A stretch of 64,000 nt of DNA, taken from NCBI RefSeq assembly GCF_015223105.1, contig NZ_JADFTZ010000002.1, positions 248,001 to 312,000 on the forward strand. The letters run 5' to 3'. This document shows, piece by piece, positions 34,302 to 58,089 of the stretch (position 1 is the first letter of the stretch; each line of letters opens with the position of its first letter). The DNA is from Flavobacterium proteolyticum (GTDB taxonomy: Bacteria; Bacteroidota; Bacteroidia; Flavobacteriales; Flavobacteriaceae). The notes below the pieces were generated by a model, which saw nothing but the letters and a program-made list of their open reading frames with translations, was not told the DNA's origin and did no database searches. Both the position numbers and the translations under genes were made by a program.

Positions 34302-34691
34302 TTAAAAAATATTTTCGATAAATTCTTTTGTAATAGGCTTGCTGGTAAACAAAACCGATTCATCTACCTTAGCTTTATGTATATACAAATCATCAACAGT
34401 AGTAGATAAAATACATATCTTAGTATGATTTTTTAACGTATCTGACAAAGAATTAAACTTTTCAATAAATGCAAATCCATCTAAAAGTGGCATATAGATA
34501 TCCAAAAAAATCAAATCCGGTAATTTAGCCGTTACATTTTGAAATTCTTCTAAATATTGAATAGCCGTTACGGAAGAATTAAATTCCATAATATCTACTG
34601 ATTCATCAAAATTAGTTATGATTTTTGAGGTAAAGTAACAATCAAACTCATTATCATCAACAATCATTACTTTTTTTACTTTAGCTTTCAT
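34302..34691 (-). CDS. Single-domain response regulator (receiver only)
   Basis: 129 residues, only a receiver domain. The acidic pair D12-D13 (VDDNE), phospho-acceptor D64 (IFLDIYMPLLDG) and the switch Lys in TSKPI are all present, so it should be phosphorylated. There is no output domain. It lies four bases behind the LytTR regulator and, with the GAF kinase upstream, makes a two-component set. It could act by protein contact or as a phosphate sink. Confidence 0.9.
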   Translation of the reverse strand: MKAKVKKVMIVDDNEFDCYFTSKIITNFDESVDIMEFNSSVTAIQYLEEFQNVTAKLPDLIFLDIYMPLLDGFAFIEKFNSLSDTLKNHTKICILSTTVDDLYIHKAKVDESVLFTSKPITKEFIENIF

Positions 34692-34695
34692 TACT

Positions 34696-35451
34696 TTATA
34701 TTTTAATAAATTTCACAAATTCTTCTTGTCTTCTCTTGGCTACGGGTAACGAAATTCCGTAATCAAACTCACAATAAAACCCATCTTTTTTTACAATTTT
34801 AACTATTTTTTTTATATTAACAACATAAGAATGATGAATTCTAAAAAAATAATTATTCAAAAGTAGAGAATTATACTCTCCAAGGTTTTTACTTGACAGA
34901 ATTTTTTGTTTGTTAGACAAAACAAACTCTGTATACTTTCCTTCCGCCTTGCAATACATAATATCTTCCACTTTAATCAATTCGATTTTATCAGATGACG
35001 AAATCGCGATAAAACCATTCTCACTCGTTTCACTACCATAACTTTTAATTTGATTGACCTTCTGATTTTGAAAACTCAATTCCATCTCAATCAACTTAAT
35101 AACCTTGTAAAGAGAAACAATAAGCTCATTAAAATCAAGCGGTTTTAACTGAAAATCAGCAGCTCCAAATCGAAAAGCATCATACGCTTTATTGATATCA
35201 GTTGACGCAAAAATGAACTTAGGAATATTAAAATCCAATTGTTTTATCAAATAAAATTCAGCTAAATTAGTGGCCGTTGGATCTAAAAATATCAGCTCAG
35301 GCTTGTGCGTTCTAATTAAAGTCATAGCTTCAGACAAACTATTTGCAAAACCGCAAATTTCGAGTATTACCGAATTTTCATCAGCAAATTTTGAAAGTTG
35401 TGCTACCACATCAGAGTTACTATCAATAATGATGGATTTCAGTAATCGCAT
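34696..35451 (-). CDS. LytTR-family response regulator with a divergent receiver
   Basis: 251 residues. The receiver (1-120) has D10 and the acceptor D57 (LIFLDPTATN) and K103 (LKP), but the usual second acidic residue after D10 is Ser (IIIDSNSD), and the MP after the acceptor is lost. Residues about 145-251 form a LytTR DNA-binding domain (EDIMYCKAEGKYTEF; FFRIHHSYVVNIKKI). It binds direct repeats as a dimer. A matching repeat pair lies upstream of the adhesin-like gene at 43820-43850, in the same probable transcription unit. Confidence 0.92.
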   Translation of the reverse strand: MRLLKSIIIDSNSDVVAQLSKFADENSVILEICGFANSLSEAMTLIRTHKPELIFLDPTATNLAEFYLIKQLDFNIPKFIFASTDINKAYDAFRFGAADFQLKPLDFNELIVSLYKVIKLIEMELSFQNQKVNQIKSYGSETSENGFIAISSSDKIELIKVEDIMYCKAEGKYTEFVLSNKQKILSSKNLGEYNSLLLNNYFFRIHHSYVVNIKKIVKIVKKDGFYCEFDYGISLPVAKRRQEEFVKFIKI

Positions 35452-35509: not shown

Positions 35510-36718
35510 TTATTCTTTAGGAATTGTAATTAAAAATTTAGTTCCTTTACCCAATTGCGATTTTACAGTTATGGCGCCACCTAACTTTTGTATGATTTTT
35601 TTAACAGTGGCTAAACCTAATCCACTTCCTGCATATTCTGATTTGGTATGCAATCTTTTGAAAGGTTTGAAAATAGAATCATAATACTCTGTTGCAATAC
35701 CAATACCATTATCTTCAACTTCAAAATAGTAATGAAACAAGTCCGATTTATAACTAATTTTAACTTCTAGGGCACGCTCCTGACTTCTGTACTTCAAAGC
35801 ATTATCAATCAAATTGTAAAAAATCATGTGCAAAGCCAATTTAGAATAATAAATGGCTGGCATTGACTGAATAACCAAATTAGAATCTGAGGAATGATGG
35901 TGTTCCACCAAATTATGGAAAATTTGCTCAAGAAAAACATTCAAATCAATCGACTCTTTTTCGTCAATTTTACTATCAGATTTGGCATAATCCAACAAAT
36001 CAACGATCAATTGATTCATGGTATCTACATTGGTATTAATGAACTGAAAGTATTTTTGCTCTTTTTCATCTATTTGACCTTCGCGTTTCATTTCAATAAG
36101 TTGTAAAAAAGACTTAATGGAACGTAAGGGAGCACGTAAATCATGTGCAGCAGTGTGCGCAAATTCTTCCATTTGTTTTGAATAATACTCAACCTCTTCT
36201 TGGTATCGTTTTAACTCAAAATTTTGTCTTCTAAGTTCGAGTAAATAAACAATCTGTTTGGCAAGACGTTTTAAAATTTGTTTTTTTTCTTCAGAAATTG
36301 TTTTGGGTTCTTCTTGACTAATAACACACAAAGTTCCGAAAGCAATTCCTGACGAATTTTGTAATGGAACGCCATAATAAGAAACAATGTTTAGATCATT
36401 TTCTACTAAAGGACTATTTTGAAATCTACTATCTGTTCTTAAATCAGGCACTTCAAATAGTTCTTCATTTGAAAGCAAGGCGTGAAAACAAATGGAATGC
36501 TCAATCGGAGTTTCTTGTAAATCAACACCTACCTTAGATTTAAAAAACTGACGTTTATCATCAATCAAACTAAGTAACACAATAGGCATATCACAAATAC
36601 ATGAAGCCAAACGAGTAATATCATCATACATTTCTTCTGGCAAAGTATCTAGAATTTTATAATTTTCTAAAGCCTTTACTCGACTGTAATCCTGATGATT
36701 TAATATCTTATTTTCCAT
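35510..36718 (-). CDS. GAF-domain sensor histidine kinase
   Basis: 402 residues from the ATG at 36718 (MENKILNHQDYSRVKALENY). Residues about 25-170 are a GAF domain typical of cytoplasmic sensor kinases, including HSICFHAL and YYGVPLQNSSG. A short coiled coil leads to the HisKA box with H192 (AAHDLRAPLRS), followed by HATPase motifs (NLIDNALKYRS, DNGIGI, GSGLGLATVKKI). There is no membrane segment. It starts 21 bases behind the OmpA gene and precedes the LytTR regulator by 58 bases, so it links a T9SS cluster to a regulator. Confidence 0.93.
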   Translation of the reverse strand: MENKILNHQDYSRVKALENYKILDTLPEEMYDDITRLASCICDMPIVLLSLIDDKRQFFKSKVGVDLQETPIEHSICFHALLSNEELFEVPDLRTDSRFQNSPLVENDLNIVSYYGVPLQNSSGIAFGTLCVISQEEPKTISEEKKQILKRLAKQIVYLLELRRQNFELKRYQEEVEYYSKQMEEFAHTAAHDLRAPLRSIKSFLQLIEMKREGQIDEKEQKYFQFINTNVDTMNQLIVDLLDYAKSDSKIDEKESIDLNVFLEQIFHNLVEHHHSSDSNLVIQSMPAIYYSKLALHMIFYNLIDNALKYRSQERALEVKISYKSDLFHYYFEVEDNGIGIATEYYDSIFKPFKRLHTKSEYAGSGLGLATVKKIIQKLGGAITVKSQLGKGTKFLITIPKE

Positions 36719-36739
36719 TGTTCTAAAATACAAAAAAAA

Positions 36740-44009: not shown

Positions 44010-47000
44010 ATGCAAAAAAGTAACACCTTCAATGCCGAAATAATTGATCAAACTGAAACAGTTGCAAAAACAGGAAGTTGGGAATTAGACCTAATATCAA
44101 ATGAATTGCATTGGTCAAAAGGAGTATACAGAATTTTGGAAATAGAACCTTCAGCTGAAAAATTAAACATTAATGTAGGCTTAGAAGTCATTCATCCTGA
44201 AGACAGAGAAATAGCACTCGAAAAAATGACACTGGCAATAAATCAAGGAATCGAATACCGAATCAAAAAAAGATTTATAACCGCCAACAACAAAATCAAA
44301 CACATCATATCTTCTGGTAAAGTAATTAAAGACGAAAACGACAAGGCTATCAAATTGATAGGAGTATTTCAAGACATCACAGAGTTTGTAGAAACAAATG
44401 AAAAAATTGAACTACTCAATAAAATCACTAAAGATGTAATTTTTGATTGGGATATAGAAAATGATGTCTTTAATTGGGGCGAAAGTTTCACACGACTATT
44501 TGGACATGATTTTGGAGACAACCCATTTAAACTCGAAGATTGGAATAAATTAATGCACCCTATTGACACTGAAACACATCGAGAAGAATGGTATGCTTTT
44601 TTTTATAACCCAAATGCGAGCCAATGGAGCAAAGAATTTCGCTTTAAAAAAAGTGATAATTCATATGCATACGTTGAGGAAAACGCCATTATAATTAGAG
44701 ACGGCAATGGCAATCCAATTAAAATGATTGGACTCTTAAGAGACATCTCTGCAAGAAAAATCATTAGCATCCAAAAAAAAATACAAAATCAAATTTCCAT
44801 ATTTTTTAAAGAAGAGAAAAAAACAGAAGATATTCTTGAAGATATTCTGCAATATCTAACTAAATACGACGATTTTCTTGCTACTGAATTATGGCTGTTA
44901 AACTCCTGCAAAACAAACATCACTTTAAAGAAATGGGCAACCCAAAACGATAACATAAAAAAAAGCTACGAAAAAACATATAATTTTTCTAGATTCACAG
45001 AAAACCAAGGACTTCCCGGAATCATCTGGAAAGAAAAAAAACACAAAATCTGGAAAAAAGAAGACATCAACAACTATTTTTTCAGAAAAGAATTAGCTGA
45101 TGAATTAGAAGTAAAATCACTTCTAGGAGTGCCACTCTTCAACAATAATGACTTCATAGGCTCTTTAGTATTCTTTTCTAAAGACGACCTTACTCTAGAC
45201 CAAATAAAAATTGAACCTTATCTTTCGCTGAGTCATTATCTGGGATCGGAGATAAAACGCAAAATGAATGAGGAAATGAATACGTTGATGTTTGAAAGCG
45301 CACCAGATATTATTGCTATAGCAAATGCTTATGGCCATTTCACAAAAGTAAACCAAGCATTTTGCGATTTATTAGGATATACCGAAGACGAAATAACTTC
45401 AAAACCTTATACCTATTTCTTACACCCTGATGATTTAAAAAAATCTGAGGTAGAATATATAGAAACCATATCTGGAAACAGAAAAGCAAATAATTTCGCA
45501 AATAGATACCGAACAAAAAACGGAGATTACAAATGGATTTCTTGGAGTTCTTCTGAAATTTTTGGAGATGAAAACAATGCTTTTTCTTATGGTAGAAATA
45601 TTACAGAGATTACTGAACTACAATACCTCTTTCAAGAAACAGCAAAGTTAGCAGAAATTGGAAGCTGGGAATATTACACCAATACTCAACTGCCCTTTTT
45701 CTTTTTATCAAGTGTAGTAAAAGACATCTTAGAACTAGATACGAACGAAAACATAGATCTAGAAACCTTACTGAACTTCACCTACGAAAATGATCGAAAA
45801 AAAACAGAAAATGCATTTTATAAATTAATAAATAGGGGTAAAAAATTTGATATCGAATTCCAAATTACAACCAAAAAAGGAAACTCCAAATGGGTAAGAT
45901 GTATCGGAAAACCCGAATACAACTTTGAAAATAAAATGACCAAAATTCTGGGAAGTATTCAAAATATAACCCATCAAAAAGTAAATGAACTCGATTTAGC
46001 GCAAAAAAACATTTTTCTTTCCTCTATCACTAGCGTGATTACAGAATTAATTAATGCCGATGATTGGTACGAATCATTAAGTAAAGTTTTTCAAATAACA
46101 GGAAGCAATATCAATGTAGATAGAATTTACTATTTTGAAATAGACGAAACAAATAATGACGAACCTAGAACATGCAGTCAAAAATTAGAATGGACAAAAA
46201 AGGACATAGCCCCTCAAATAGAAAATCCAGAATTACAAAGAGTACCAATGGAAGTCTTTACTGATTTTTTCGATCCTTTAATGGAAGGAAAACTAGTTTC
46301 TGCAATTACTTCCCAATTACCAGAAGGAAATTTAAAAGATAATGTAACGAGTCAAAACATCAAATCATTTTTAGTTTTACCACTCTTTATCAACAACGAA
46401 TTCCATGGTTTTATTGGATTTGATGATTGTACTACTGAACGCAATTGGTCAATCAGCGAATTAAGTTTTCTTTCAAATATAGTTTTCAACCTAGCTACTA
46501 CCATTCAGAGAATTAAAACTAACATCGCACTTCAAAAATCACTAGACGAAAAAAACAATATTTTAGAAAGTATAGGAGATGCCTTTATTTCTCTAGATAA
46601 AAATTGGAACATCACCTATTGGAACAACAAAACAGAAAAAATTATTGGACTTAATAGAGCAGAAGTATTTGGTAAAAATTTATGGGAATTATTTCCTCAA
46701 ATCAAAAATACCATCCAAGAAACAAAATACAAAGAAGCGCTATTAGAACAGAAAACAGTATATTTTCAAACTTTTTTAGACAAGCTCAACTTATGGGTAG
46801 AAATTAGTGTATATCCTTCAAAAACAGGATTATCTATCTATTACAAAGACATCACAAACACTAAAGCTTATGAAGATGCCCTAAAAGCTTCAAACGATCG
46901 TTTTGAAAAATCTACTTCAGCCACAAATGATGCTATTTGGGACTGGGATATTGAAAAAAACACCATGTATCGTGGTGAAGGTTTTTACAAATCTTTTGGA

Positions 47001-48005
47001 TATAAAGTTCCAAGTTTTATTAATGACACCAACATACTAAACTTAATAAAATCAAGAGTAAGACCTGACCAAGCCGATGAGGTAATCAATTCATTAATAG
47101 AAGCAATTAATAATCCTGAAAAACAAAATTGGCACCAGGAATATTGGTATAAAAAAGCAAATGGCGAATATGCTTTCATTATAAACAACGGAGTTATTAT
47201 CAGAAATGAAGATGGAGTTGCAACACGAATTGTAGGGGCACTACAAGACATTACACACCTAAAAGAACAAGAAGACTCGCTACGCATTCTAAACAAAAAA
47301 CTAGAAAAACAAACAAAAGCACTACTAAATTCCAATCAAGAGCTAGAACAATTTGCTTATGTAGCTTCTCATGATTTACAAGAACCGTTAAGAATGGTAA
47401 CTAGTTTTCTTACGCACTTGGAAAAAAAATACGATAATGTGCTTGATGAAAAAGGAAAGCAGTATATTTACTTTGCCGTTGATGGTGCTAATAGAATGCG
47501 AAATATTATTCTAGACATTCTAGAATACTCAAGAGTAGGAAAACTAAAAGAAGAAAGCGACAAAATCGATTTGAACAAACTTATTGAGGAAATTTGCAAA
47601 ATAAACCATCAAACAATAAACGAAAAACAAGCTAAAATTATTTATGACAAATTACCAATAATTAATTCTTACAAAACACCTTTAACTCAAATTTTACATA
47701 ACTTAATCGGAAACGCTCTCAAATACCAACAAGCTAACAAAATACCTATCATAAAAATTAAAGTTGAAGAAAAAGATAAAAATTGGCATTTTAAAATTAA
47801 AGACAATGGCATTGGAATAGATAAAGAATTTCAGGATAAAATTTTTGTAATTTTCCAAAGATTACACACCAAACAAGAATATAGCGGCTCTGGAATGGGA
47901 CTAGCAATTGTGAAAAAAATTATTGAAAATCTAAATGGAACCATCTGGGTTGAATCCGAAGTAAATAAAGGTGCAACGTTTCATTTTACATTACCAAAAA
48001 AATGA
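44010..48005 (+). CDS. Cytoplasmic multi-PAS/GAF sensor histidine kinase
   Basis: 1331 residues without signal peptide or membrane segment. Order read from the repeats: PAS (about 10-130), PAS (135-250), GAF (255-420), PAS (429-540), PAS (545-660), GAF (662-845), PAS (850-960), PAS (963-1085), then HisKA with H1121 (VASHDLQEPLRM) and HATPase with NLIGNALKYQQ, DNGIGI and GSGMGLAIVKKI. The PAS domains end in DIT-type linkers. It integrates several cytoplasmic signals; ligands cannot be read. No receiver is fused. It overlaps the next gene by four bases (ATGA), and faces the adhesin gene across 269 bases. Confidence 0.93.
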   Translation: MQKSNTFNAEIIDQTETVAKTGSWELDLISNELHWSKGVYRILEIEPSAEKLNINVGLEVIHPEDREIALEKMTLAINQGIEYRIKKRFITANNKIKHIISSGKVIKDENDKAIKLIGVFQDITEFVETNEKIELLNKITKDVIFDWDIENDVFNWGESFTRLFGHDFGDNPFKLEDWNKLMHPIDTETHREEWYAFFYNPNASQWSKEFRFKKSDNSYAYVEENAIIIRDGNGNPIKMIGLLRDISARKIISIQKKIQNQISIFFKEEKKTEDILEDILQYLTKYDDFLATELWLLNSCKTNITLKKWATQNDNIKKSYEKTYNFSRFTENQGLPGIIWKEKKHKIWKKEDINNYFFRKELADELEVKSLLGVPLFNNNDFIGSLVFFSKDDLTLDQIKIEPYLSLSHYLGSEIKRKMNEEMNTLMFESAPDIIAIANAYGHFTKVNQAFCDLLGYTEDEITSKPYTYFLHPDDLKKSEVEYIETISGNRKANNFANRYRTKNGDYKWISWSSSEIFGDENNAFSYGRNITEITELQYLFQETAKLAEIGSWEYYTNTQLPFFFLSSVVKDILELDTNENIDLETLLNFTYENDRKKTENAFYKLINRGKKFDIEFQITTKKGNSKWVRCIGKPEYNFENKMTKILGSIQNITHQKVNELDLAQKNIFLSSITSVITELINADDWYESLSKVFQITGSNINVDRIYYFEIDETNNDEPRTCSQKLEWTKKDIAPQIENPELQRVPMEVFTDFFDPLMEGKLVSAITSQLPEGNLKDNVTSQNIKSFLVLPLFINNEFHGFIGFDDCTTERNWSISELSFLSNIVFNLATTIQRIKTNIALQKSLDEKNNILESIGDAFISLDKNWNITYWNNKTEKIIGLNRAEVFGKNLWELFPQIKNTIQETKYKEALLEQKTVYFQTFLDKLNLWVEISVYPSKTGLSIYYKDITNTKAYEDALKASNDRFEKSTSATNDAIWDWDIEKNTMYRGEGFYKSFGYKVPSFINDTNILNLIKSRVRPDQADEVINSLIEAINNPEKQNWHQEYWYKKANGEYAFIINNGVIIRNEDGVATRIVGALQDITHLKEQEDSLRILNKKLEKQTKALLNSNQELEQFAYVASHDLQEPLRMVTSFLTHLEKKYDNVLDEKGKQYIYFAVDGANRMRNIILDILEYSRVGKLKEESDKIDLNKLIEEICKINHQTINEKQAKIIYDKLPIINSYKTPLTQILHNLIGNALKYQQANKIPIIKIKVEEKDKNWHFKIKDNGIGIDKEFQDKIFVIFQRLHTKQEYSGSGMGLAIVKKIIENLNGTIWVESEVNKGATFHFTLPKK

Positions 48006-49612
48006 ACCTACTTAGAAAAATAAATAAATGTTTAGATTACTGGCCAAATCAGCTGGCCATTATATCTTTTTTTATTTTACTTATCATTAATATATTCTTA
48101 ACCTATAGAATTTACAACAATGAATATGGCAATGAATTAATTAAGGTAAAAGAAGAGTCTTTCAAGATAAAAAACCAATTGGAAGGTACCATCAATTACA
48201 GTTCTAACGTAGTTAAAGTAATTAGTTTTATCGCCGAAAAGAATTTAGAAGAACAAGAATTTGAACCTGTTGCAAAAAATCTAGTAGAAAAAAACAAATA
48301 TGTTGATGGAATTCAATTGGTCAAAGGATTTAAGATTATAAAAACACATCCTTTACTCGGAAATGAAAAAAGTATTGGCTACAACCTTACACTAAACAAA
48401 CTTCATGAAAAAGCAGCAAAAGATGCAATAAAAAAAAATAAAATATTTTTTGAAGGACCATTCGAGTTAGTTCAAGGCGGAATGGGAATTGTAGGCCGAG
48501 AACCTATTTATAAAAATGGTAAATTTTGGGGGTTTTCTGCTGTGATTATTAAAACCGAAACTTTTTTAAAAGCGATTCACTTAGACGACCTTGGGAGCAA
48601 TTCAAAGTTTGATTATCAAATTGTTCAAAAAGAAAACGATTTAAAAGGTCCTAAGTTTTTTAAAAACAATGCCGATTTTAGCAAAGGAATTATTTACAAA
48701 TCTTTCTTACCTGCTGGTGATTGGTACTTGTATGTAAAACTTAAAGAACCAAAATATTTAAACAGATCCGTCGAGTTTTTAATTTACGGAATTATTTTAA
48801 GCATAATAATTGCATTGTACCTAAGAAAACTAGCAGAAGAACCATTAAAACTGGAAACCTTAGTTGATAAAAAAACTGCCGATTTAGAAAAATTAAATTT
48901 AGAATTAGAAAACAGAGCAAAAGAACTTACGAAAGTAAATAAAGAGTTAGAATATTTTGCTTACATCATTTCGCATGACTTGCAAGAGCCACTGAGAATG
49001 ATTACTAGTTTTTTAACCCAACTAGAGAAGAAATACAATGATGTAATTGACGACAAAGGAAAAAGATACATCTACTTTGCGGTTGATGGTGCTAAGAGAA
49101 TGAAGAATATTATTCTAGATATTTTAGAATTTTCAAGAGTTGGAAAATACAACGACAAAAAAGAAGCGATTAACTTAAATGAAATCGTTCAAGAAATTGA
49201 ATCTTTCCATAAACTCGAATTCCCACATGGCAAACTAGTTTATGAAAATCTACCTACTATAAATTCATATAAATCGCCATTAATTCAAATATTTCAAAAT
49301 CTAATTGGTAATGCTTTTAAATATTCTAAGGAAAATGAAGCCCCAATTGTGTCGGTTAAAGTAATAGAAGAAAACGACAAACAAATTACCTTTGCAATTA
49401 AAGACAATGGAATTGGAATAGAAAATGAATATCTGGAAAAAATATTTGTTCTTTTTCAAAGATTACACACAAGAGAAGGCGACAAAGGAAGTGGAATGGG
49501 ATTAGCCATTGTAAAGAAAATTATAGAAAATCTGAACGGTACCATTTGGGTAGAATCGAAGGTAAATGTAGGCAGTACATTTTACTTTACACTACCAAAA
49601 GAAAAGGAATAA
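48002..49612 (+). CDS. CHASE-domain membrane histidine kinase
   Basis: 536 residues. Membrane helix at about 16-35, then a periplasmic CHASE-like ligand domain (about 40-255; FFEGPFELVQGGMGIVGREP and FWGFSAVIIKTETF fit CHASE), a second helix at about 260-280, a coiled coil, HisKA with H325 (IISHDLQEPLRM), and a complete HATPase (NLIGNAFKYSK, DNGIGI, GSGMGLAIVKKI). The catalytic core is close to that of the upstream kinase, so it is a tandem paralogue. It senses an unknown small molecule outside the membrane. Overlap of four bases with the gene before. Confidence 0.93.
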   Translation: MNLLRKINKCLDYWPNQLAIISFFILLIINIFLTYRIYNNEYGNELIKVKEESFKIKNQLEGTINYSSNVVKVISFIAEKNLEEQEFEPVAKNLVEKNKYVDGIQLVKGFKIIKTHPLLGNEKSIGYNLTLNKLHEKAAKDAIKKNKIFFEGPFELVQGGMGIVGREPIYKNGKFWGFSAVIIKTETFLKAIHLDDLGSNSKFDYQIVQKENDLKGPKFFKNNADFSKGIIYKSFLPAGDWYLYVKLKEPKYLNRSVEFLIYGIILSIIIALYLRKLAEEPLKLETLVDKKTADLEKLNLELENRAKELTKVNKELEYFAYIISHDLQEPLRMITSFLTQLEKKYNDVIDDKGKRYIYFAVDGAKRMKNIILDILEFSRVGKYNDKKEAINLNEIVQEIESFHKLEFPHGKLVYENLPTINSYKSPLIQIFQNLIGNAFKYSKENEAPIVSVKVIEENDKQITFAIKDNGIGIENEYLEKIFVLFQRLHTREGDKGSGMGLAIVKKIIENLNGTIWVESKVNVGSTFYFTLPKEKE

Positions 49613-49614
49613 AG

Positions 49615-50535
49615 ATGAAATCGGAACTTAAGATAACACTTTTATACATTACCATTGGAATATTGTGGATATTCTTAAGCGACCATTTTGTGCTTTTATT
49701 TATCACAAAAAACACCCAAGAACAAATCACTAATTTTCAAAATATTAAAGGCTGTTTTTTTGTTATTTCAACCGGATTGCTCTTATTTACCTTACTTAAA
49801 AGACATAATTCTGCCATTCGACAAAAAATTGAAGAACTAAAAGAAAAATCTTCAGAACTTAAAAAAACCAATAACGAACTTGAAAATTACTTTTTTCTGG
49901 CTTCTCATGATTTGCAAGAGCCCAATAGAACCATCATTAGTTTCTTAACAAATCTTGAAAAAAAACACAAAAACAGTCTTGATGAACAAGGACACAAATA
50001 CATCAAATTCGCCATTGATGGTGCGTACTACATGCGCAAAAGTATTTTAAACTTACAACAACACACTAAAATAGGTAAAAACTTAAATTACAAAAACATA
50101 GATCTAAATCTGGTCATTAACAACATACTAAAAGAATATGAAAATACGTTAACACCCGATAATATAACCTTATCTAGGCTACCTATTATAAAAACAGATG
50201 GAAATTTAATATACCTAATTTTTAAAAATTTAATTGAAAATGCAATTAAATTTAAAAAAGATAATGAAAAGCTACACATCTCAATTACTTACAAAGAGCA
50301 CCCTGATCATTGGGAATTCACTTGTTCAGATAATGGTATCGGAATTGATGAAGAGTATCATGAAAAAATTTTTCAATTATTCCAACGCTTGAATTCAAAC
50401 ATTGAAAATAAAGGAACTGGCGTAGGTTTATCAATTACTAAAAAAGCAGTTGAAATTTTAGGAGGAAAAATTCAAATTGATGCAACTCGAAATCAAGGCA
50501 GTTCATTTTATTTCACATTACCAAAAAAGCAATAA
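49615..50535 (+). CDS. Short two-helix membrane histidine kinase
   Basis: 306 residues from the ATG at 49615 (MKSELKITLLYITIGILW), two bases behind the previous stop; the longer frame would overlap the CHASE kinase. Two membrane helices (about 7-30 and 45-63) enclose only a short loop, so there is no real ligand domain. A coiled coil leads to H98 in LASHDLQEPNRT, where the usual Leu after Pro is Asn. HATPase motifs are NLIENAIKFKK, DNGIGI and GTGVGLSITKKA. It is a third paralogue of the same core, possibly a helper kinase. Confidence 0.9.
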   Translation: MKSELKITLLYITIGILWIFLSDHFVLLFITKNTQEQITNFQNIKGCFFVISTGLLLFTLLKRHNSAIRQKIEELKEKSSELKKTNNELENYFFLASHDLQEPNRTIISFLTNLEKKHKNSLDEQGHKYIKFAIDGAYYMRKSILNLQQHTKIGKNLNYKNIDLNLVINNILKEYENTLTPDNITLSRLPIIKTDGNLIYLIFKNLIENAIKFKKDNEKLHISITYKEHPDHWEFTCSDNGIGIDEEYHEKIFQLFQRLNSNIENKGTGVGLSITKKAVEILGGKIQIDATRNQGSSFYFTLPKKQ

Positions 50536-50575
50536 AACACCAAGTTTAATCAATTTAAAATCAAAATTATATAAG

Positions 50576-50620
50576 AAAAAAGAGATAAAAAAATGATATT
50601 TAACTCTTTTTTTGATTTTT
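50576..50620 (+). terminator. Possible weak terminator within the signalling cluster
   Basis: AAAAAAGAG (50576-50584) pairs with CTCTTTTTT (50604-50612) over a 19-base loop, with more T afterwards. A -7-like TATCTTTA at 50639-50646 suggests a new start for the next gene. Confidence 0.35.
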
Positions 50621-50676
50621 TTTTAGAGAAATTAAAGTATCTTTATAAAACAAACAACAAAACTACCCCCATAGCT

Positions 50677-51102
50677 ATGAAAAAAAATCAAATCTTACTA
50701 GTAGAAGATAACGAAGGAGATATCGTTTTAACTTCAGAAGCTTTTGAAGAATGTGGCTGTAAAACAAATATTCAAGTAGCTCGAAATGGTAAAGAAGCCA
50801 TTAATATCTTGTTTGATCAGAGTGACGATGCCCAATTGCCAGATTTAATTCTCCTAGACATTAATTTACCTTTATTGAACGGACATGAGGTATTAAAAAA
50901 AATTAAGGAAAATGAAAAAACACAGTACATTCCAGTTGTAATTTTAACAACTTCTTCTGCTATCAGCGATATCAACTTAACTTACGAAAATTTTGCTAAT
51001 TCCTTTATTACAAAACCCGCTGATATTAATGATTTTTTTGAAACAATTAATAGTTTAAGCAACTATTGGTTTAACATTTGTAAATTACCAGCTAAGAAAT
51101 GA
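50677..51102 (+). CDS. Rcp1-like single-domain response regulator
   Basis: 141 residues from the ATG at 50677; the longer frame adds a low-complexity Phe-rich leader. Receiver residues: E10-D11 (LLVEDNEGDI), phospho-acceptor D61 (LILLDINLPLLNGHEV), Thr-Ser-Ser in the alpha4 region and the Lys in FITKPAD. VEDNEGD and the C-terminal NYWFNICKLP fit the Rcp1 group of stand-alone receivers that pair with phytochrome-like kinases. No output domain. Close paralogue of the receiver gene at 57649. Confidence 0.92.
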   Translation: MKKNQILLVEDNEGDIVLTSEAFEECGCKTNIQVARNGKEAINILFDQSDDAQLPDLILLDINLPLLNGHEVLKKIKENEKTQYIPVVILTTSSAISDINLTYENFANSFITKPADINDFFETINSLSNYWFNICKLPAKK

Positions 51103-51103
51103 T

Positions 51104-52063
51104 ATGTTTGTAGACGAAAGAAAGTATAATATTATAGTCATCGAAGACAACTTTGGCGATTTTTTCCTTTTAGAAGAATATGTAAGTGAAAAAATCAAAA
51201 ATCCTACTATTAAGCATCTAGAACGATTTAGTGAACTAAATGACTTCAAAGACGAAGTGGGCCAGTATGATATTATTTTTTTAGACCTTTCATTACCTGA
51301 CAAAAGCGGATCAGAGTTAGTAGAAAGTGTACTAAAAATTGCAAAAAATATCCCTGTAGTAGTATTAACAGGATATTCAGATTTTTCGTTTGCTTTAAAA
51401 GCAATTGCATTAGGAGCTTCAGATTACCTCTTAAAAGATGAACTTAACAGTGTAACCCTTTACAAAAGTATCGTATACAATATCGAACGCTTTAAAAACA
51501 TAATTAAAATTAAAGAATCGGAACAATTATACAACGACTTATTCGAACTAAGTCCGCAACCTATTTTTGTAATTGATGCCGCAACTTTACAAATTTTAGA
51601 TGTAAACCAAGCCTGTGAAAAATTGTACGAATTTAAAAAGGAAGAATTATTAAATCAATCTATTACAACTATTTTTAAAGACGAGGAAACTATTTTTGAC
51701 AACCATCAAACCATAATTACACAAACCCATCAAAAAAAGAACAAAGAGAAAATCATCTCCGAAGTAAAATATAATAAAATCATCCATAACAATAAAGAAG
51801 CAATAATAATCGTAAGTAATGATATCACGAAAAGTATTGAACATCTTAATGAAATCGAAAGTCAAAACACAAAGTTAAAGGATATCGCTTGGATTCAATC
51901 CCACATTGTTAGAGCACCACTTACAAATATTTTAGGACTTATTCAATTAATAAATGAAACCGAATCCGTAAAAGATAAAGAATTGCTTCTTCACCTGAAC
52001 CAATCAGTACAAGAACTAGATAACAGCATCAATGAAATAGTAAATAAAACGCATGCTATGTAA
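51104..52063 (+). CDS. Receiver-PAS-orphan DHp protein
   Basis: 319 residues. Residues 1-125 are a receiver with E14-D15 and D61 (IIFLDLSLPDKSG). Residues 140-255 are a PAS domain (LFELSPQPIFVIDAATLQIL). The last 60 residues start IAWIQSHIVRAPLTNILGLI, an H-box with H267, a HisKA-like dimerisation and phosphotransfer helix pair. The protein ends there: there is no HATPase domain, and the stop is followed at 52081 by another gene. It could pass phosphate between receiver and His without ATP, or be a truncated kinase. It starts one base behind the previous stop. Confidence 0.9.
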   Translation: MFVDERKYNIIVIEDNFGDFFLLEEYVSEKIKNPTIKHLERFSELNDFKDEVGQYDIIFLDLSLPDKSGSELVESVLKIAKNIPVVVLTGYSDFSFALKAIALGASDYLLKDELNSVTLYKSIVYNIERFKNIIKIKESEQLYNDLFELSPQPIFVIDAATLQILDVNQACEKLYEFKKEELLNQSITTIFKDEETIFDNHQTIITQTHQKKNKEKIISEVKYNKIIHNNKEAIIIVSNDITKSIEHLNEIESQNTKLKDIAWIQSHIVRAPLTNILGLIQLINETESVKDKELLLHLNQSVQELDNSINEIVNKTHAM

Positions 52064-52080
52064 CTAAAAAATCTTTGCCT

Positions 52081-52467
52081 ATGAAAAAACACATTTTCAT
52101 AATAGATGACGATCCAATTTCTACTATAATTCTAAAAAAAAATTTAGAACTTATTGCAGTTTTTAAAGGAATTGAAACATTTAATAACGGTAAAGATGCT
52201 TTTAACTTTTTAGAAAAAGAATATCAAAAAGAAGATAAATATATAATTTTCCTTGACCTCAATATGCCAGAAATGAACGGATGGGAATTCCTAGACAAAG
52301 TAAAGCATGTGATTTCATCACATAACACAACAATTTATGTACTCACTTCGTCTATCAACAAAGCAGATATGGAAAAAACAACGCAATTTTCATTAATTGA
52401 AAAATACATATCAAAACCTATTGATAAAAAGATACTAATTGAAATTAAAGAAAAATACAAATTGTAA
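52081..52467 (+). CDS. Single-domain response regulator
   Basis: 128 residues from the ATG at 52081 (MKKHIFIIDDDPISTIILKK). Acidic triad D9-D11, acceptor D59 (IIFLDLNMPEMNGWEF), switch Thr in VLTSS and Lys in ISKPID, so a full receiver. It is of the CheY-like flavobacterial type rather than the Rcp1 type. No output domain. It follows the receiver-PAS-DHp gene by 17 bases and is followed by a 150-base gap with a promoter. Confidence 0.9.
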   Translation: MKKHIFIIDDDPISTIILKKNLELIAVFKGIETFNNGKDAFNFLEKEYQKEDKYIIFLDLNMPEMNGWEFLDKVKHVISSHNTTIYVLTSSINKADMEKTTQFSLIEKYISKPIDKKILIEIKEKYKL

Positions 52468-52550
52468 AATAAATAGAAATACCCCACCCACTTCCAAAAT
52501 CGACCTACTTTAAAATCTGGACTATATTCAATAAAATTAAAAATAAAAAG

Positions 52551-52580
52551 TTGACAATCAATAAATTATCACTAATTTAA
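52551..52580 (+). promoter_or_regulatory. Promoter of the giant PAS kinase gene
   Basis: TTG (52551-52553), exactly 19 bases, TAATTTAA (52573-52580). The start site is expected near 52587, about 30 bases before the ATG at 52618. Confidence 0.5.
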
Positions 52581-52617
52581 GCATCGAAACTTTAGTTCAA
52601 TATAAAAGCAATTAATA

Positions 52618-55600
52618 ATGAGTAAAGACCATTTAAACTATAATCTTTTCAACCTTAACCCTTTACCATCGTGGATATACAACTTTCAAACGTTCCAAAT
52701 TCTAGATGTAAATATTGCTGCCATTGAAAACTATGGATATTCAAAAGAAGAATTTCTGGAGCTAACCATTAAGGACATTAGACCTCCGCATGAAATAGAA
52801 AAACTTCTTAATGCTCATGCAACTATTAAAAACCAAAATGGAAATATCTATTTTGGCGTTTTTACCCATTTAAAAAAAGATGGAACACTTATTCAAGTAG
52901 AAATTAATGGTCATAAAATCGATTTCAACAACCAAGAGTGCATATTGGTTGTTTGCCAAGATATTACCAAAAGAATTGAACAAGAAGAACTAATACTGCA
53001 AAGTGAACAACGCTTCAAATCCTTAGTACAAGAAGGGGGCGACATGATAAGCATTATTGACGCAGATGGTAAATATAGTTATACAAGCCCTACAACAACC
53101 GCTATTTTAGGAATAACTCCTGAAGAGTTTCAAGGCAATACAATTTTTGATTTTATCCATCCTGAAGATATCGAGAAAGCTTCAAACTACATGCTAAGAA
53201 TAGCTAAAGAAAAAAAAGTAATCGTAGAACCTTTCAGACTTAAAGATGGTAATAACGAATGGAGATGGATTGAAACAGTGTTAACCAATATGATTGACAA
53301 TCCTGCCATTAGAGGAATTGTTGCCAATTCTAGAGATATTACAAAACAAAGAGAAGAAGAGCAACTACTAAGGCTGCTAAGTAGCGTAGTAACAAATACT
53401 AAAGATTCAGTCGTAATTACAGAGGTAGAACTCATTGATTATTCTGGACCCAAAATCATATACGTAAATGATGCTTTCACGAAAATGACAGGTTATGATG
53501 CTGCTGAAGTAATTGGAAAAACAACTAAAATCCTTCACGGCCCAAATACCGATCATGAGGAACTTAAAAAATTGAGCAGAGCTATTGAAAATTGGGAATC
53601 CTACGAAATCACAACAGTAAATTACAAAAAAAACGGAGAAGAGTTTTGGAATAATTTTAAAATATCGCCTGTAGCTGATGAAAAAGGAATATATACCCAT
53701 TGGATAGCCATACAAAGAGACGTAACAGAGCAAAAACAAAAAGAACTTGAAAAAGAACTTTTAGGAAAAATAAGTCTAGACTTCTCTTCCGAAAAAAATT
53801 TATTAGCATCTTCTAAATTACTTTGTCAAACTATTTGCGACTATGGCCGATTTGACCTTGTGGAATTATGGATGCCAAATATCGAAAATACATTACTACA
53901 ATTGATCACAAATAATGTAGCTTCTTCAAATGCAACTTCATTTTCTGAATTAACAAAAGAAGTACAAAACTTTAAACTAAACGAAGGTCTTCCTGGAACA
54001 GTATGGAGCAAAAAGAAGACCTTACTTTGGGAAGAAATTAACACGAATAATGATTTTATTCGCAAAGAAGCCGCTGAAAAAACGGCACTTAAAAATGCAG
54101 CTGGTTTTCCGCTAATTCAAAACAACAATATTGTAGGGGTATTACTAATAGCCACACAAAAAGAAATAAATCATTTAAAAAAACACATCAAACTTTTTGA
54201 ACATTTAAAGCAATTCATAGGATCAGAAATCAACCGAAAAAAACTAGAAAACGATTTAGATTATTTATACAACACCATCCCTGATTTACTATGCGTAACA
54301 GATTTTGAAGGTAAATTTTTAAAAATAAACAAAGCAGCTTGTGACTTATTAGGCTATACAGAAAACGAAATTCTGCACCAACCCTTTAACAAATTTGTCC
54401 ATCCGGATGACAAAAACCGATCTATTGAAGAACTTGAAAATACCACTAAAGGACAAACAACTTTAAGATTTGAAAATAGATACATAACCAAAACCGGAAA
54501 AGTAATTTGGCTAAGCTGGACATCTAGAACTGCTTCGGAGGTTGGACTAATTTATGCCACTGCAAAAAACATTACCGAGGAAAAAAAGATAAAAGAACTC
54601 AACAGACAAACACGCGAACTTGCCAAAGTGGGCGGCTGGGAATACAATTTAATTGAAAACCATTTATTCTGGTCAGTAGAAGTACATCGTTTACACGAAA
54701 CAGATCCAAACACATTCATTCCAGATGTAAATACAGCCATAAACTTTTACAAAGAAGAGCATAAAGCTTATGTTACAGAATGCATAACCAAAAGCATTAC
54801 AGAAGGAGCCTATTTAGATTATGAAGCTATTATCATCAATAAAAGTAACAAAGAACGATGGATAAGAGTAATTGGAAATCCTGAATATGAAAATGGTACA
54901 TGCGTAAAATTTGTAGGTAGTTTTCAAGACATAACCGATCGTAAAGAAACAGAAGAACGATTACAAAACATATCAGATAACATTCCGGGAGTAGTTTATC
55001 AATACCTACTTCATCCTGATGGCAGCGAAGAAATTAAAAATGTAAGCAAAGGCGCAGAAAAAATTTGGGGATATACAGCCGATACAATTACAAACAATAT
55101 TGACTTAGCATGGAATCAAATCAAAGCAGGAGGCGATTTTGAGGCAGTAAAGCAAAGCATTGTTGATTCTATCATAAACAGAACAAACTGGTCAATTAAA
55201 TTCCGTTCGGTTGCTCCTAATGGAGAAAAACGTATGCTTCAAGGTTATGGAAAACCTGAATTTTCTATAGACGGCACCATTCTTTTTAATTCCATTTTAT
55301 TAGATATTACGCAAGAAACTCAAAACGAAGAACTATTAGCGCAAGTAACCAAATTAGCCAAAATAGGAAGTTGGGAACTTGATTGTATAGAAAATAAAAT
55401 GTATTGGTCAAACACCGTGTACGAACTTCATGAAACCGACCCTAAAACGTTTATACCCAATTTAGAGGATGGTATCAATTTCTACAGAGAAGATTTTAGA
55501 CAAATGGTGGCAGAAAAAACAGCAATAAGTTTAGAAACGGGAATACCTTTTGATTTCGAAGCCATTATAGTGACAGACAAAAACAAAGAACGTTGGGTAA

Positions 55601-57573
55601 GATGCATAGGAAATGCTGAAATGAAAAATGAAAAATGCATACGTTTATATGGAAGTTTTCAAGACATTCATGACCAAAAAATAGTAGAACTACAAAAAAA
55701 CAGCCTACAAAACACTCTAGAAAACAGTTTAAATGAGATTTATCTATTTGATGCAGATACTTTTCAATTTATTTACGTTAACAAAGGTGCAATAAATAAT
55801 ATTGGTTATACTGCAGATGAAATAAAAAAACTAACACCATTAGATATTAATCCCGATTATAAACTAGCTTCGTTTAAAGATCTGGCTAAGCCTTTAATAA
55901 ACAAAGAAAAGGAAAAACTAATCTTTTTTACAAACCATCAAAGAAAAGATGGCACTCTTTACCCAGTAGAAGTGCACTTACAATTAGTTACAGAAAATAA
56001 CCAAAGAAGATTTTTAGCTATAATAGTTGATATAACAGAACGTAAAAGAACCGAAAAAGAAATTAGTGATAGCGAAGAAAAAAGAAAATTAATCATGAGT
56101 GGCGCATTAGATGCCATCATTTGTATCGACACGACAGAAGCTATTACTTTTTGGAACAAGCAAGCCGAAGAAATTTTTGGTTGGAAGGAAACAGAAGCAC
56201 TTGGGCAACAACTATCCGAACTAATTGTACCTGAACCATTTCGAAAATACCATAGAGAAGGCATGAAACACTATCTCAAAACAGGTGAAGGAAAAGCACT
56301 AAATGTACTATTAGAATTAAGTGCCATCAAACGAAGTGGCGAAGAATTTCCAATAGAATTAACAGTAATTCCCATAAAACAAGGAGAAGATTTGTTTTTC
56401 TGTGCCTTCATTAGAGATATAACAGAACGTAAAAAATCAGAAACGAGTATTCTACAAGCAAAAGAACGCTTTGAAAAAGTAACAGAAGCAACTAATGACG
56501 CTATTTGGGACTACGATGTGGCAAACAATACGCTGTTTTGGGGGAAAGGGTTTCAAACCTTATTCGGTTACGACTTGGAAGTCACCAAACCATCATTTGA
56601 ACTATTAGCTTCATTAATCCACGAAGACGATAGAGAACGCATCACAAGCAAAATAGGGCAATACATGCAAGATCCAAATCTCAAAAACTGGCACGAAGAA
56701 TATAGATTTACAAAAGCAGACGGATCTATAGCTTATGTAATTGATCGCGCTACATTTTTAAGAAATAATCTTGGAAAAGTAGTACGAGTGATTGGAGCTA
56801 TGACTGATATTTCAGAACAAAAAAATCATGAAGCCCAACTCATTGCCTTGAACGAATCATTACAATCGTATGCCAAAGAACTAGAACGATCTAACGAAGA
56901 ATTAGAACAATTTGCTTTTATTACATCTCACGATTTACAAGAACCGCTACGAATGATTTCAAGCTTCATGGATCAGCTAAAACGCAAATATGAGGACAAA
57001 TTAGATGACAAAGCACTACAATACATAGAATTTGCTACAAACGGTTCAAAACGTATGAAGCAAATCATCTTAGATCTTTTAGATTATTCTAGAGCAGGAA
57101 GACCAACAGATTTAATTGAAAAAGTAGACATCAATGAAATAATTACGGATTTCAAACTATTAAGAGGAAAAATTATTGCTGAAAAATCAGCAGTGATTAC
57201 TTCCGATGCTATTCCAGTTATTAAAACCTATAAAACAGGAATTACTCAGGTATTCCACTCACTATTAGACAACGCTATTAAATATTCAAAAAAAGAAGAA
57301 GCTCCAAATATTAAAATTACTTGTAAAGAAGAAAAAGACAAATGGACATTTGCAGTAAAAGATAACGGTATAGGTATTGACCCTAAATTCTATAGTAAGA
57401 TTTTCATTATTTTCCAACGCCTTCATAATCGCGAAGAATACGAAGGAACAGGTATTGGGCTCTCTATAGTCAAACGCCATATCGATTTCTTAGGAGGTAA
57501 AATTTGGGTAGAATCGGAACTAGAAAAAGGAACAACATTTTATTTTGAAATCCCTAAAACAAATGAACATTAA
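52618..57573 (+). CDS. Giant cytoplasmic histidine kinase with ten PAS and one GAF domain
   Basis: 1651 residues, no membrane segment. Order: PAS (1-125), PAS (131-250), PAS (252-378; LOV-like outline but no flavin-binding Cys), GAF (382-540), PAS (548-660), PAS (669-780), PAS (782-905), PAS (914-1020), PAS (1025-1140), PAS (1150-1280), PAS (1285-1405), HisKA with H1438 (ITSHDLQEPLRM) and HATPase (SLLDNAIKYSK, DNGIGI, GTGIGLSIVKRH). The PAS domains at 669 and 914 are clearly recent duplicates. It likely integrates several cytoplasmic signals and hands phosphate to the Rcp1-like receiver 75 bases downstream. Confidence 0.93.
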   Translation: MSKDHLNYNLFNLNPLPSWIYNFQTFQILDVNIAAIENYGYSKEEFLELTIKDIRPPHEIEKLLNAHATIKNQNGNIYFGVFTHLKKDGTLIQVEINGHKIDFNNQECILVVCQDITKRIEQEELILQSEQRFKSLVQEGGDMISIIDADGKYSYTSPTTTAILGITPEEFQGNTIFDFIHPEDIEKASNYMLRIAKEKKVIVEPFRLKDGNNEWRWIETVLTNMIDNPAIRGIVANSRDITKQREEEQLLRLLSSVVTNTKDSVVITEVELIDYSGPKIIYVNDAFTKMTGYDAAEVIGKTTKILHGPNTDHEELKKLSRAIENWESYEITTVNYKKNGEEFWNNFKISPVADEKGIYTHWIAIQRDVTEQKQKELEKELLGKISLDFSSEKNLLASSKLLCQTICDYGRFDLVELWMPNIENTLLQLITNNVASSNATSFSELTKEVQNFKLNEGLPGTVWSKKKTLLWEEINTNNDFIRKEAAEKTALKNAAGFPLIQNNNIVGVLLIATQKEINHLKKHIKLFEHLKQFIGSEINRKKLENDLDYLYNTIPDLLCVTDFEGKFLKINKAACDLLGYTENEILHQPFNKFVHPDDKNRSIEELENTTKGQTTLRFENRYITKTGKVIWLSWTSRTASEVGLIYATAKNITEEKKIKELNRQTRELAKVGGWEYNLIENHLFWSVEVHRLHETDPNTFIPDVNTAINFYKEEHKAYVTECITKSITEGAYLDYEAIIINKSNKERWIRVIGNPEYENGTCVKFVGSFQDITDRKETEERLQNISDNIPGVVYQYLLHPDGSEEIKNVSKGAEKIWGYTADTITNNIDLAWNQIKAGGDFEAVKQSIVDSIINRTNWSIKFRSVAPNGEKRMLQGYGKPEFSIDGTILFNSILLDITQETQNEELLAQVTKLAKIGSWELDCIENKMYWSNTVYELHETDPKTFIPNLEDGINFYREDFRQMVAEKTAISLETGIPFDFEAIIVTDKNKERWVRCIGNAEMKNEKCIRLYGSFQDIHDQKIVELQKNSLQNTLENSLNEIYLFDADTFQFIYVNKGAINNIGYTADEIKKLTPLDINPDYKLASFKDLAKPLINKEKEKLIFFTNHQRKDGTLYPVEVHLQLVTENNQRRFLAIIVDITERKRTEKEISDSEEKRKLIMSGALDAIICIDTTEAITFWNKQAEEIFGWKETEALGQQLSELIVPEPFRKYHREGMKHYLKTGEGKALNVLLELSAIKRSGEEFPIELTVIPIKQGEDLFFCAFIRDITERKKSETSILQAKERFEKVTEATNDAIWDYDVANNTLFWGKGFQTLFGYDLEVTKPSFELLASLIHEDDRERITSKIGQYMQDPNLKNWHEEYRFTKADGSIAYVIDRATFLRNNLGKVVRVIGAMTDISEQKNHEAQLIALNESLQSYAKELERSNEELEQFAFITSHDLQEPLRMISSFMDQLKRKYEDKLDDKALQYIEFATNGSKRMKQIILDLLDYSRAGRPTDLIEKVDINEIITDFKLLRGKIIAEKSAVITSDAIPVIKTYKTGITQVFHSLLDNAIKYSKKEEAPNIKITCKEEKDKWTFAVKDNGIGIDPKFYSKIFIIFQRLHNREEYEGTGIGLSIVKRHIDFLGGKIWVESELEKGTTFYFEIPKTNEH

Positions 57574-57648
57574 GTTGAAAAAAACATATAAGTACAAACA
57601 CGTCGAATAAAAAGAAATAAGTAGATTATAATTTAAAAACGAAGTAAA

Positions 57649-58089
57649 ATGGACTCAAAAAAAACAGCACATATTCTTTTGGTAGAAGATAATGAAGGAG
57701 ATATATTACTTACGATTGATGCTTTTGAAGAAAGTAAAATAAATACAGAAATCAGTGTAGCAAGAAACGGTCAAGAAGCTTTAGACTTTTTATACAACAG
57801 AAGTAATTTCATTGAAGCTAAAAGACCAGACCTTATACTTTTAGACATTAATCTACCCATTTTCAACGGACACGAAGTACTAAAACAAATTAAAACAGAT
57901 CTTAATCTAAAGAAGATTCCTGTTATAATGCTCACTACATCTTCTTTTGCAAACGATATTAGTCAAGCCTACGAAAACAATTGCAACAGTTATGTAAAAA
58001 AACCATTAGATATGGATGATTTTCTTGAAGCTATATTAAAAATAGAAAATTTCTGGCTAGAGATTTGTACATTACCTGGTAAAGTCTAA
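57649..58089 (+). CDS. Rcp1-like single-domain response regulator
   Basis: 146 residues. E13-D14 (LLVEDNEGDI), acceptor D66 (LILLDINLPIFNGHEV), Lys in VKKPLD. C-terminal ENFWLEICTLPGKV matches the end of the receiver at 50677, so the two are paralogues. It is the last gene of the plus-strand signalling cluster and the likely partner of the giant kinase. There is no output domain. Only seven bases separate its stop from the convergent glycosyltransferase gene. Confidence 0.93.
   Translation: MDSKKTAHILLVEDNEGDILLTIDAFEESKINTEISVARNGQEALDFLYNRSNFIEAKRPDLILLDINLPIFNGHEVLKQIKTDLNLKKIPVIMLTTSSFANDISQAYENNCNSYVKKPLDMDDFLEAILKIENFWLEICTLPGKV

Follow-up and report, generated by a model that had tools for sequence, protein, structure and literature searches.

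Where could the phosphoryl group go in a gene cluster that is built from histidine kinases and receivers and contains no output domain? The genome of Flavobacterium proteolyticum (2.83 Mb, 17 contigs, 99.94% complete) raises this question within a 64,000-nucleotide stretch of contig NZ_JADFTZ010000002.1 (positions 248,001 to 312,000), which we call the window. As an earlier note on this DNA stated, eight open reading frames (ORFs), here A to H, lie in a row on the plus strand at positions 44010–58089 of the window, and they encode four histidine kinases (A, B, C and G), three single-domain receivers (D, F and H) and one receiver–PAS–DHp protein (E). The reading that we favor, with moderate confidence, is that the cluster is a multi-input phosphorelay of separate proteins in which E acts as a histidine phosphotransferase that feeds F. 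The features of the cluster are as follows.

44010..48005, plus strand: A, multi-PAS/GAF histidine kinase with the box SHDLQEPLR; Pfam PAS/GAF, HisKA and HATPase_c; orthologues in loci L041 and L043
48002..49612, plus strand: B, CHASE-domain histidine kinase with the box SHDLQEPLR; Pfam CHASE, HisKA and HATPase_c
49615..50535, plus strand: C, short histidine kinase in which two hydrophobic helices were identified by eye; box SHDLQEPNR
50677..51102, plus strand: D, single-domain Rcp1-type receiver (class REC_DH); Pfam Response_reg only
51104..52063, plus strand: E, receiver–PAS–DHp protein; Asp61 is the codon at 51284–51286 and His267 that at 51902–51904
51839..52060, plus strand: DHpE, the hairpin of E, residues 246–319, with a QSHxVRAPL-type motif, then the stop
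52075..52467, plus strand: F, short single-domain receiver of class REC_F with Asp61; Pfam Response_reg only
52618..57573, plus strand: G, giant multi-PAS histidine kinase with the box SHDLQEPLR, of a second kinase clade
57649..58089, plus strand: H, single-domain Rcp1-type receiver of the partner lineage of G; Pfam Response_reg only

The earlier observation that none of the eight proteins carries an output domain holds. Pfam matched only sensor, kinase and receiver domains in them, with no DNA-binding, GGDEF, EAL or enzymatic output domain, and among the best 25 NCBIfam rows for each of seven proteins (all except G) the PAS model TIGR00229 was the sole row above its curated cut-off. Receiver domains are matched 37 times across the genome, five times in open frames of at most 175 residues; four of these five lie within the window and three within the cluster.

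Protein E ends in a DHp hairpin without an ATPase domain

Protein E terminates a few residues past its DHp hairpin, and no HATPase domain is matched in it by Pfam. The Pfam matches in E are Response_reg and PAS; HisKA is found below threshold at residues 266–312 (15.8 bits against a cut-off of 26.9), and the homologue of E in L044 also falls below that cut-off, with 26.2 bits. Because the HisKA match is subthreshold, our assignment of the DHp domain leans also on a profile and a structural model. A profile of 18 ATPase-less DHp rows has invariant Asn, Ser, His and Arg residues, and the best matches of the DHpE profile among PDB sequences are the DHp domains of histidine kinases. In the AlphaFold2 model of E (built from 36 sequences; pLDDT 87.0, pTM 0.54), the receiver is followed by a long helix (residues 116–149), a PAS domain and a hairpin of two helices (residues 242–285 and 292–318). 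A Foldseek search with this model returned PAS–DHp kinase structures on top, many further rows covering PAS/LOV domains only.

All 36 aligned E proteins have the phospho-acceptor histidine of the hairpin, His267. Across 40 distinct E-type DHp segments, the position that follows the histidine (H+1) is V in 26, I in 7, E in 4 and K, Q or R in one each, and position H+4 is A in 34, S in 4, K in 1 and V in 1, with T or N in none. Kinase activity has been described as requiring E or D at H+1 and phosphatase activity T or N at H+4 (PMC3510030). With these residues mostly lost, E would be expected to be neither a kinase nor a phosphatase. Pfam finds no match to Hpt (PF01627) in E, and none across the genome; the same model matched in 8 of 14 genomes as a positive control.

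We considered whether E might be a pseudogene and rejected the idea, as ATPase-less E-type proteins are intact and end at about one point in several families. In locus L231, the place of E is taken by receiver–PAS proteins that continue into HisKA_2 or HisKA_3 plus HATPase and stand beside kinases and Rcp1-type receivers; the ATPase-less hairpin is thus one of several parts used after this receiver–PAS pair.

A hairpin of this kind could also serve to hold proteins together. E would then be a dimeric adaptor or scaffold whose hairpin dimerizes and whose receiver and PAS domains steer contacts, with no relay running through it. Dimers and protein–protein contact are suggested for archaeal REC–PAS/GAF–HisKA proteins without HATPase in the part of PMC5847659 that deals with them, and the long helix and PAS domain in our model would suit dimerization. 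E-type proteins also occur alone, in L227 and L229 and in L163 and L178. A scaffold, however, would have no need for a phospho-acceptor histidine, yet this residue is present in every aligned E protein, nor would it need a REC_F receiver directly after the hairpin, as found in L122 and L127. We regard the scaffold as unlikely. As a separate observation, the solitary proteins of L163 and L178 have a degenerate receiver site, with neither the Asp nor the Lys, and an intact histidine.

Gene order and natural fusions point from E to F

The neighbors of E were counted in loci L162–L231, which lie outside the training of the domain models, and in L129–L131, whose DHp segments are within the DHpE model; some of the 29 non-redundant E proteins counted are rows of the search profile A2, and neighbors played no part in their selection. 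The next gene upstream encodes a single Rcp1-type receiver in 21 of the 29 and a kinase in 3, and the next gene downstream encodes an F-type receiver in 17. In none of the 29 does an F-type receiver stand directly upstream or an Rcp1-type receiver directly downstream. Seen from the other side, 21 of 25 single Rcp1-type receivers have E as the next gene downstream; a kinase is the next gene upstream within 500 bp in 20, and beyond that distance in 2 more. In a hand count of 18 loci with full-length E (L212–L229), 16 have an HDLQEP kinase in the gene row of E, 14 show the series kinase, Rcp1-type receiver, E, and 11 have F as the next gene after E, one of them (L223) across a gap of 151 bp. The same three genes, with an E-type protein last, stand in this order across several families of Bacteroidota (labels f1, f7, f17, f18, f22, f33, f36 and f46).

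The hairpin and a REC_F receiver are also found joined in one chain. Genome G090 (family f7) contains three natural DHpE–REC_F fusions with no intervening ATPase domain, two in L122 and one in L127. A model of such a fusion has a pLDDT of 90.6 and a pTM of 0.69; the fold-comparison rows listed for it mainly cover the receiver (residues 103–235) and say nothing on the hairpin or on how the domains are arranged. Other ATPase-less DHpE proteins lie beside single REC_F genes in L120, L175, L184, L197, L200 and L203; among 43 such proteins that lack the receiver of E (REC_E), a REC_F gene is next downstream in 7 and next upstream on the same strand in 2.

From the gene order and these fusions, we propose that E transfers phosphate to F, as the last step of the following relay. 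After autophosphorylation, kinases A, B and C, as well as G, would pass phosphate to the Rcp1-type receivers D and H, from which the phosphoryl group would move to His267 of E. The hairpin of E, having no ATPase domain, would act only as a histidine phosphotransferase, presumably as a dimer, and His267 would pass the group on to the single-domain receiver F. The receiver of E, through Asp61, may provide a further phosphate site or side acceptor, or it may be a switch that sets whether the histidine of E can be used. F, which has no output domain, would be expected to act through protein contact. We infer the transfer steps, their direction and the output from sequence and gene arrangement. The earlier note had likewise proposed a phosphorelay, which remains the best reading of a cluster without an output domain; its account listed E without singling it out as the central element, and it treated as one cluster what we describe below as two units.

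The receiver site of E follows the presence of Rcp1-type receivers

The receiver site of E (the acid pair, Asp, Thr/Ser and Lys) is intact in 29 of 36 proteins and degenerate in 7. An Rcp1-type receiver is present at the locus of 28 of the 29 proteins with an intact site versus 1 of the 7 with a degenerate one (Fisher p 2.4e-5, with presence assigned by hand and kinship ignored). We also compared evolutionary distances by partial correlation with permutation p values, an exploratory analysis of eleven pairs, uncorrected, over 23 loci and over the 20 loci with F. Across the 23 loci, DHpE covaries with the Rcp1-type receiver (partial r 0.37, p 0.002); the values are 0.20 (p 0.05) for kinase and Rcp1-type receiver and −0.02 for the receiver of E and the Rcp1-type receiver. 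Across the 20 loci, the correlation is 0.44 (p 0.001) between DHpE and the Rcp1-type receiver and 0.36 (p 0.01) between the Rcp1-type receiver and F.

These data bear on the view that the cluster consists of separate two-component pairs. The HDLQEP kinases would phosphorylate D and H, these receivers would act by contact, and E with F would form another branch or a phosphate sink. Pairs of the Cph1/Rcp1 type do operate without an E protein, and a profile of the D/H receivers searched against PDB sequences ranks RcpA (1k68) first and Rcp1 (1i3c, 1jlk) third and fourth. A kinase and E occur without an Rcp1-type receiver in L219 and L220, as do kinases, E and F in L206. What speaks against separate pairs is that the order of kinase, Rcp1-type receiver and E is repeated over several families, that degenerate E receiver sites mostly coincide with a missing Rcp1-type receiver, and that DHpE covaries with that receiver. 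We find separate pairs quite unlikely.

Several observations weigh against the relay through E to F that we favor. The acidic residue at H+1 is kept in 4 of the 40 E-type segments. The next downstream gene is not F in 12 of the 29 E proteins, and 39 F-type receivers follow E in 17 cases, another ATPase-less DHpE protein in 7 and a kinase in 7; many other ATPase-less DHpE proteins are solitary. Six of the seven E proteins with a degenerate receiver site have no Rcp1-type receiver nearby and still keep the histidine, which may therefore have another use. The rows compared are kin by descent, and in our judgement the seven degenerate cases go back to some four independent losses. Over the 23 loci, DHpE correlates with the receiver of E itself (0.35, p 0.0005) and with the kinase (0.32, p 0.0005) at values near that for the Rcp1-type receiver, and over the 20 loci it correlates only weakly with F (partial r 0.16, p about 0.1). 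Finally, full-length E, counted by hand as a row from receiver to DHp in an open frame of less than 400 residues, was found in few genomes: at least 18 of 394 from the phylum and at least 15 of 397 from the family, with six genomes common to both lists. These counts are lower bounds because the best 5 candidates per genome were scored.

Two units make up the cluster

The kinase box was described in the earlier note as common to the kinases. A, B and G do share SHDLQEPLR; C has SHDLQEPNR instead. All four matches to the HDLQEP codon pattern in the genome (2.83 Mb) fall within the cluster, and the reversed pattern, used as a control, has none. The companion idea that the kinases are tandem paralogues suits A and B, which lie close together in the kinase tree and group with the first two kinases of L194, a row of three kinases, receiver, E and F. 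It does not extend to C, on a long branch shared with the third kinase of L194, or to G, in another well-supported clade. G and H each fall within a 12-row clade (supports 100/98 and 100/99), and both clades cover largely the same loci. Kinase–receiver pairs of the G/H lineage precede an E in L034, L039, L192, L224, L225 and L228. Given these clades and pairs, the cluster joins an A–F unit to a G–H pair; L215 has a comparable row without F.

In 55 distinct HDLQEP kinase segments, H+1 is D in 54 and E in 1, and H+4 is E in 53, L in 1 and I in 1. As H+4 is not T or N, these kinases would be expected to be poor phosphatases. At E 0.01, Pfam matches HATPase_c alone in C, whose H-box we identified by eye. 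In G, Pfam matches HisKA, HATPase_c and many PAS domains, with PAS_3 in nine stretches that are not an exact count of PAS domains, and GAF_2 lies below cut-off. Elsewhere, two kinases span separate ORFs. An HDLQEP kinase at L218:2571-8630 is divided into two ORFs between its DHp and ATPase domains, by a frameshift or as a split kinase. At L128:5417-6135, a SHNFRAP-type kinase is broken up, with its DHp and ATPase parts in different ORFs; an intact copy lies nearby, and each has a REC_F gene after it.

The genes are tightly spaced within the first unit: A and B overlap by 4 bp, B and C are 2 bp apart, C and D 57 bp (141 bp to the start of D in relatives), D and E 1 bp, and E and F 11 or 17 bp. 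Gaps of 150 bp and 75 bp precede G and H. The ORF of C begins with TTG at 49546, and the start in relatives corresponds to the residue encoded at 49615; the ORF of D runs from 50593, and relatives start at 50677. F has a TTG start in the ORF list and an ATG at 52081.

The module is conserved in order and patchy in distribution

A search for the same gene order in relatives, as proposed earlier, recovered it. All eight genes stand in order in F. aquaticum (L041) and UBA7663 (L043), A to G are retained up to contig ends in MAG.495 (L040) and W57 (L031), and the core of kinase, receiver and E is found in several families. The order is thus conserved in relatives rather than scattered. The distribution of the module is patchy. 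Among 100 genomes, our own included, E matches from receiver to DHp occur in five (G000, G023, G009, G031 and G059), a shorter receiver–DHp form in G017 and a receiver-only remnant of E in G032. The G032 locus (L037) has the same CHU_C and glycosyltransferase neighbors but is without C, F, G and H; its E remnant (L037:12091-12495) occupies the corresponding chromosomal position and ends next to the glycosyltransferase gene. At E 1e-8, the DHpE profile has matches in 42 of 148 sampled genomes of the phylum, ATPase-bearing kinases included.

A LytTR regulator on the opposite strand is a doubtful end point

The earlier note suggested that the relay might feed a LytTR regulator on the other strand of the window, where three genes form a set.

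34302..34691, minus strand: REC_F-class single receiver next to the LytTR gene
34696..35451, minus strand: LytTR-type regulator with a weak receiver domain, a possible downstream regulator
35510..36733, minus strand: kinase of the LytTR set, HisKA and HATPase_c, box AHDLRAPLR

The relay would then end on gene expression, by direct phosphorylation of the regulator or through contact with a phosphorylated REC_F-class receiver. Synteny gives the suggestion some footing. The set, with the genes of type IX secretion system (T9SS) type next to it (CHU_C, PorP/SprF and OmpA), flanks the module in F. aquaticum and G154, and likewise in G032 without the OmpA gene; in L226, from another genus, the set alone adjoins the module, 59 bp from F. 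Of 100 genomes, 6 have a LytTR match at E 1e-40, and 4 of these carry an E of the D lineage (G000, G009, G023) or its remnant (G032). The nearby REC_F-class receiver keeps its Asp in 7 of 7 homologous sets and adjoins the LytTR gene in 6, standing one gene off in the seventh, and contact between this receiver and the LytTR regulator is possible.

Other findings detract from this end point. LytTR occurs in only 2 of 32 module stretches and has its own kinase, and its receiver Asp is replaced in 4 of 7 homologues (L240, L241, L226 and L239; kept in the window, L242 and L238), contrary to direct phosphorylation. Together these make the regulator an unlikely phosphate acceptor. Moreover, G013 carries the set, its own kinase included, without an E match of the D-lineage kind, LytTR and E lie on separate contigs in G009, and the synteny may reflect plain inheritance. 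Support for the earlier suggestion is mixed, and we consider the LytTR regulator a very unlikely target of the relay.

The surroundings of the module offered no substitute. Clustering of the ORFs that flank the module at 35 loci gave no group present in more than 5 of them. The members examined from the two largest groups, one each, encode a GTP-binding GTPase in L206 and a short-chain dehydrogenase in L044. Pfam and the neighbors of these 35 loci thus yielded neither an output domain nor a recurrent output gene as the final target of the module. Genes for short-chain dehydrogenase, FAA hydrolase and amidohydrolase are found close to the module in L044, L214 and L217, as assigned by Pfam for some members.

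Relation to known phosphorelays and receivers

Spo0B has a degenerate ATPase-like C-terminal domain. We liken E, with its own receiver, to Spo0F and Spo0B fused. Both Spo0B (PMC3433190, PMC5898713) and ChpT (PMC3433190) are described as histidine phosphotransferases that form dimers around a DHp-like four-helix bundle; ChpT is without autokinase activity. As reported in PMC3433190, ChpT retains a C-terminal domain of Bergerat type in which ATP was not seen, whereas E stops after its hairpin. In the Pak–SdrG–PhyT–PhyR system of Sphingomonas melonis, as outlined in PMC5898713, several kinases load a single-domain receiver, and PhyT, by way of a conserved His, hands the phosphoryl group on to the final regulator. 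The relay proposed here would run in the same way, from kinases to a single receiver, a kinase-derived histidine carrier and a last receiver. PhyT as described there is membrane-bound and keeps a degenerate ATPase domain, whereas E has no such domain and carries a receiver and a PAS domain; PhyR has a sigma-factor-like output domain and F has none. Compared with the group of Spo0B, ChpT and PhyT, E has the DHp hairpin and the conserved phospho-acceptor histidine but not the degenerate ATPase-like domain. Because that domain is absent, we class E as a variant that probably works like the ChpT/PhyT-type phosphotransferases and not as a member of the group.

Among the systems presented in these sources, Pak–SdrG–PhyT–PhyR is the closest in action, and the archaeal receiver–PAS–HisKA type is the closest in architecture. 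The section of PMC5847659 on archaeal REC–PAS/GAF–HisKA proteins without HATPase, such as AF_1472, presents them as unstudied and without known partners, and HATPase-less proteins of Archaeoglobus also appear in PMC1183210. By description, E shares with AF_1472 the same architecture of receiver, PAS/GAF and HisKA-type DHp without HATPase. In Bacteroidota, unlike in the archaeal case, E belongs to a conserved set of genes that provides candidates for its partners. It also differs from receiver-controlled histidine kinases such as LvrB in having no HATPase domain of its own.

The box of Cph1 is SHDLQEP. As in Cph1/Rcp1 pairs, an Rcp1-type receiver stands here beside a SHDLQEP kinase; unlike in Cph1, no phytochrome domain is matched by Pfam in A, B, C or G at E 0.01. 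For output by contact the phylum offers a precedent in PorX, a CheY-like regulator of Bacteroidetes that, as reported in PMC5005315, binds PorL and does not bind T9SS promoters; F, by comparison, is a bare receiver. A description of the module was not found among titles and abstract openings of the open-access literature, which is a weak negative, and passage searches of PMC11210211 and PMC4558063 turned up nothing on it.

More tentatively, DHpE may represent a dedicated Bacteroidota class of histidine phosphotransferase that replaces HPt. Such a class could have arisen when the ATPase domain was lost completely, along with the residues for kinase and phosphatase activity, and it would feed output-less REC_F receivers that act by contact alone, with pseudo-receiver LytTR regulators among their partners. 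The architecture of receiver, PAS and HisKA without ATPase, described in archaea as unstudied, here lies within a recurrent gene set of kinases and receivers, so its partners can be named and the relay can be tested in vitro. If true, the relay would show how far a kinase can be reducible to a phosphate carrier, and it may account for some of the receivers without output in Bacteroidota.

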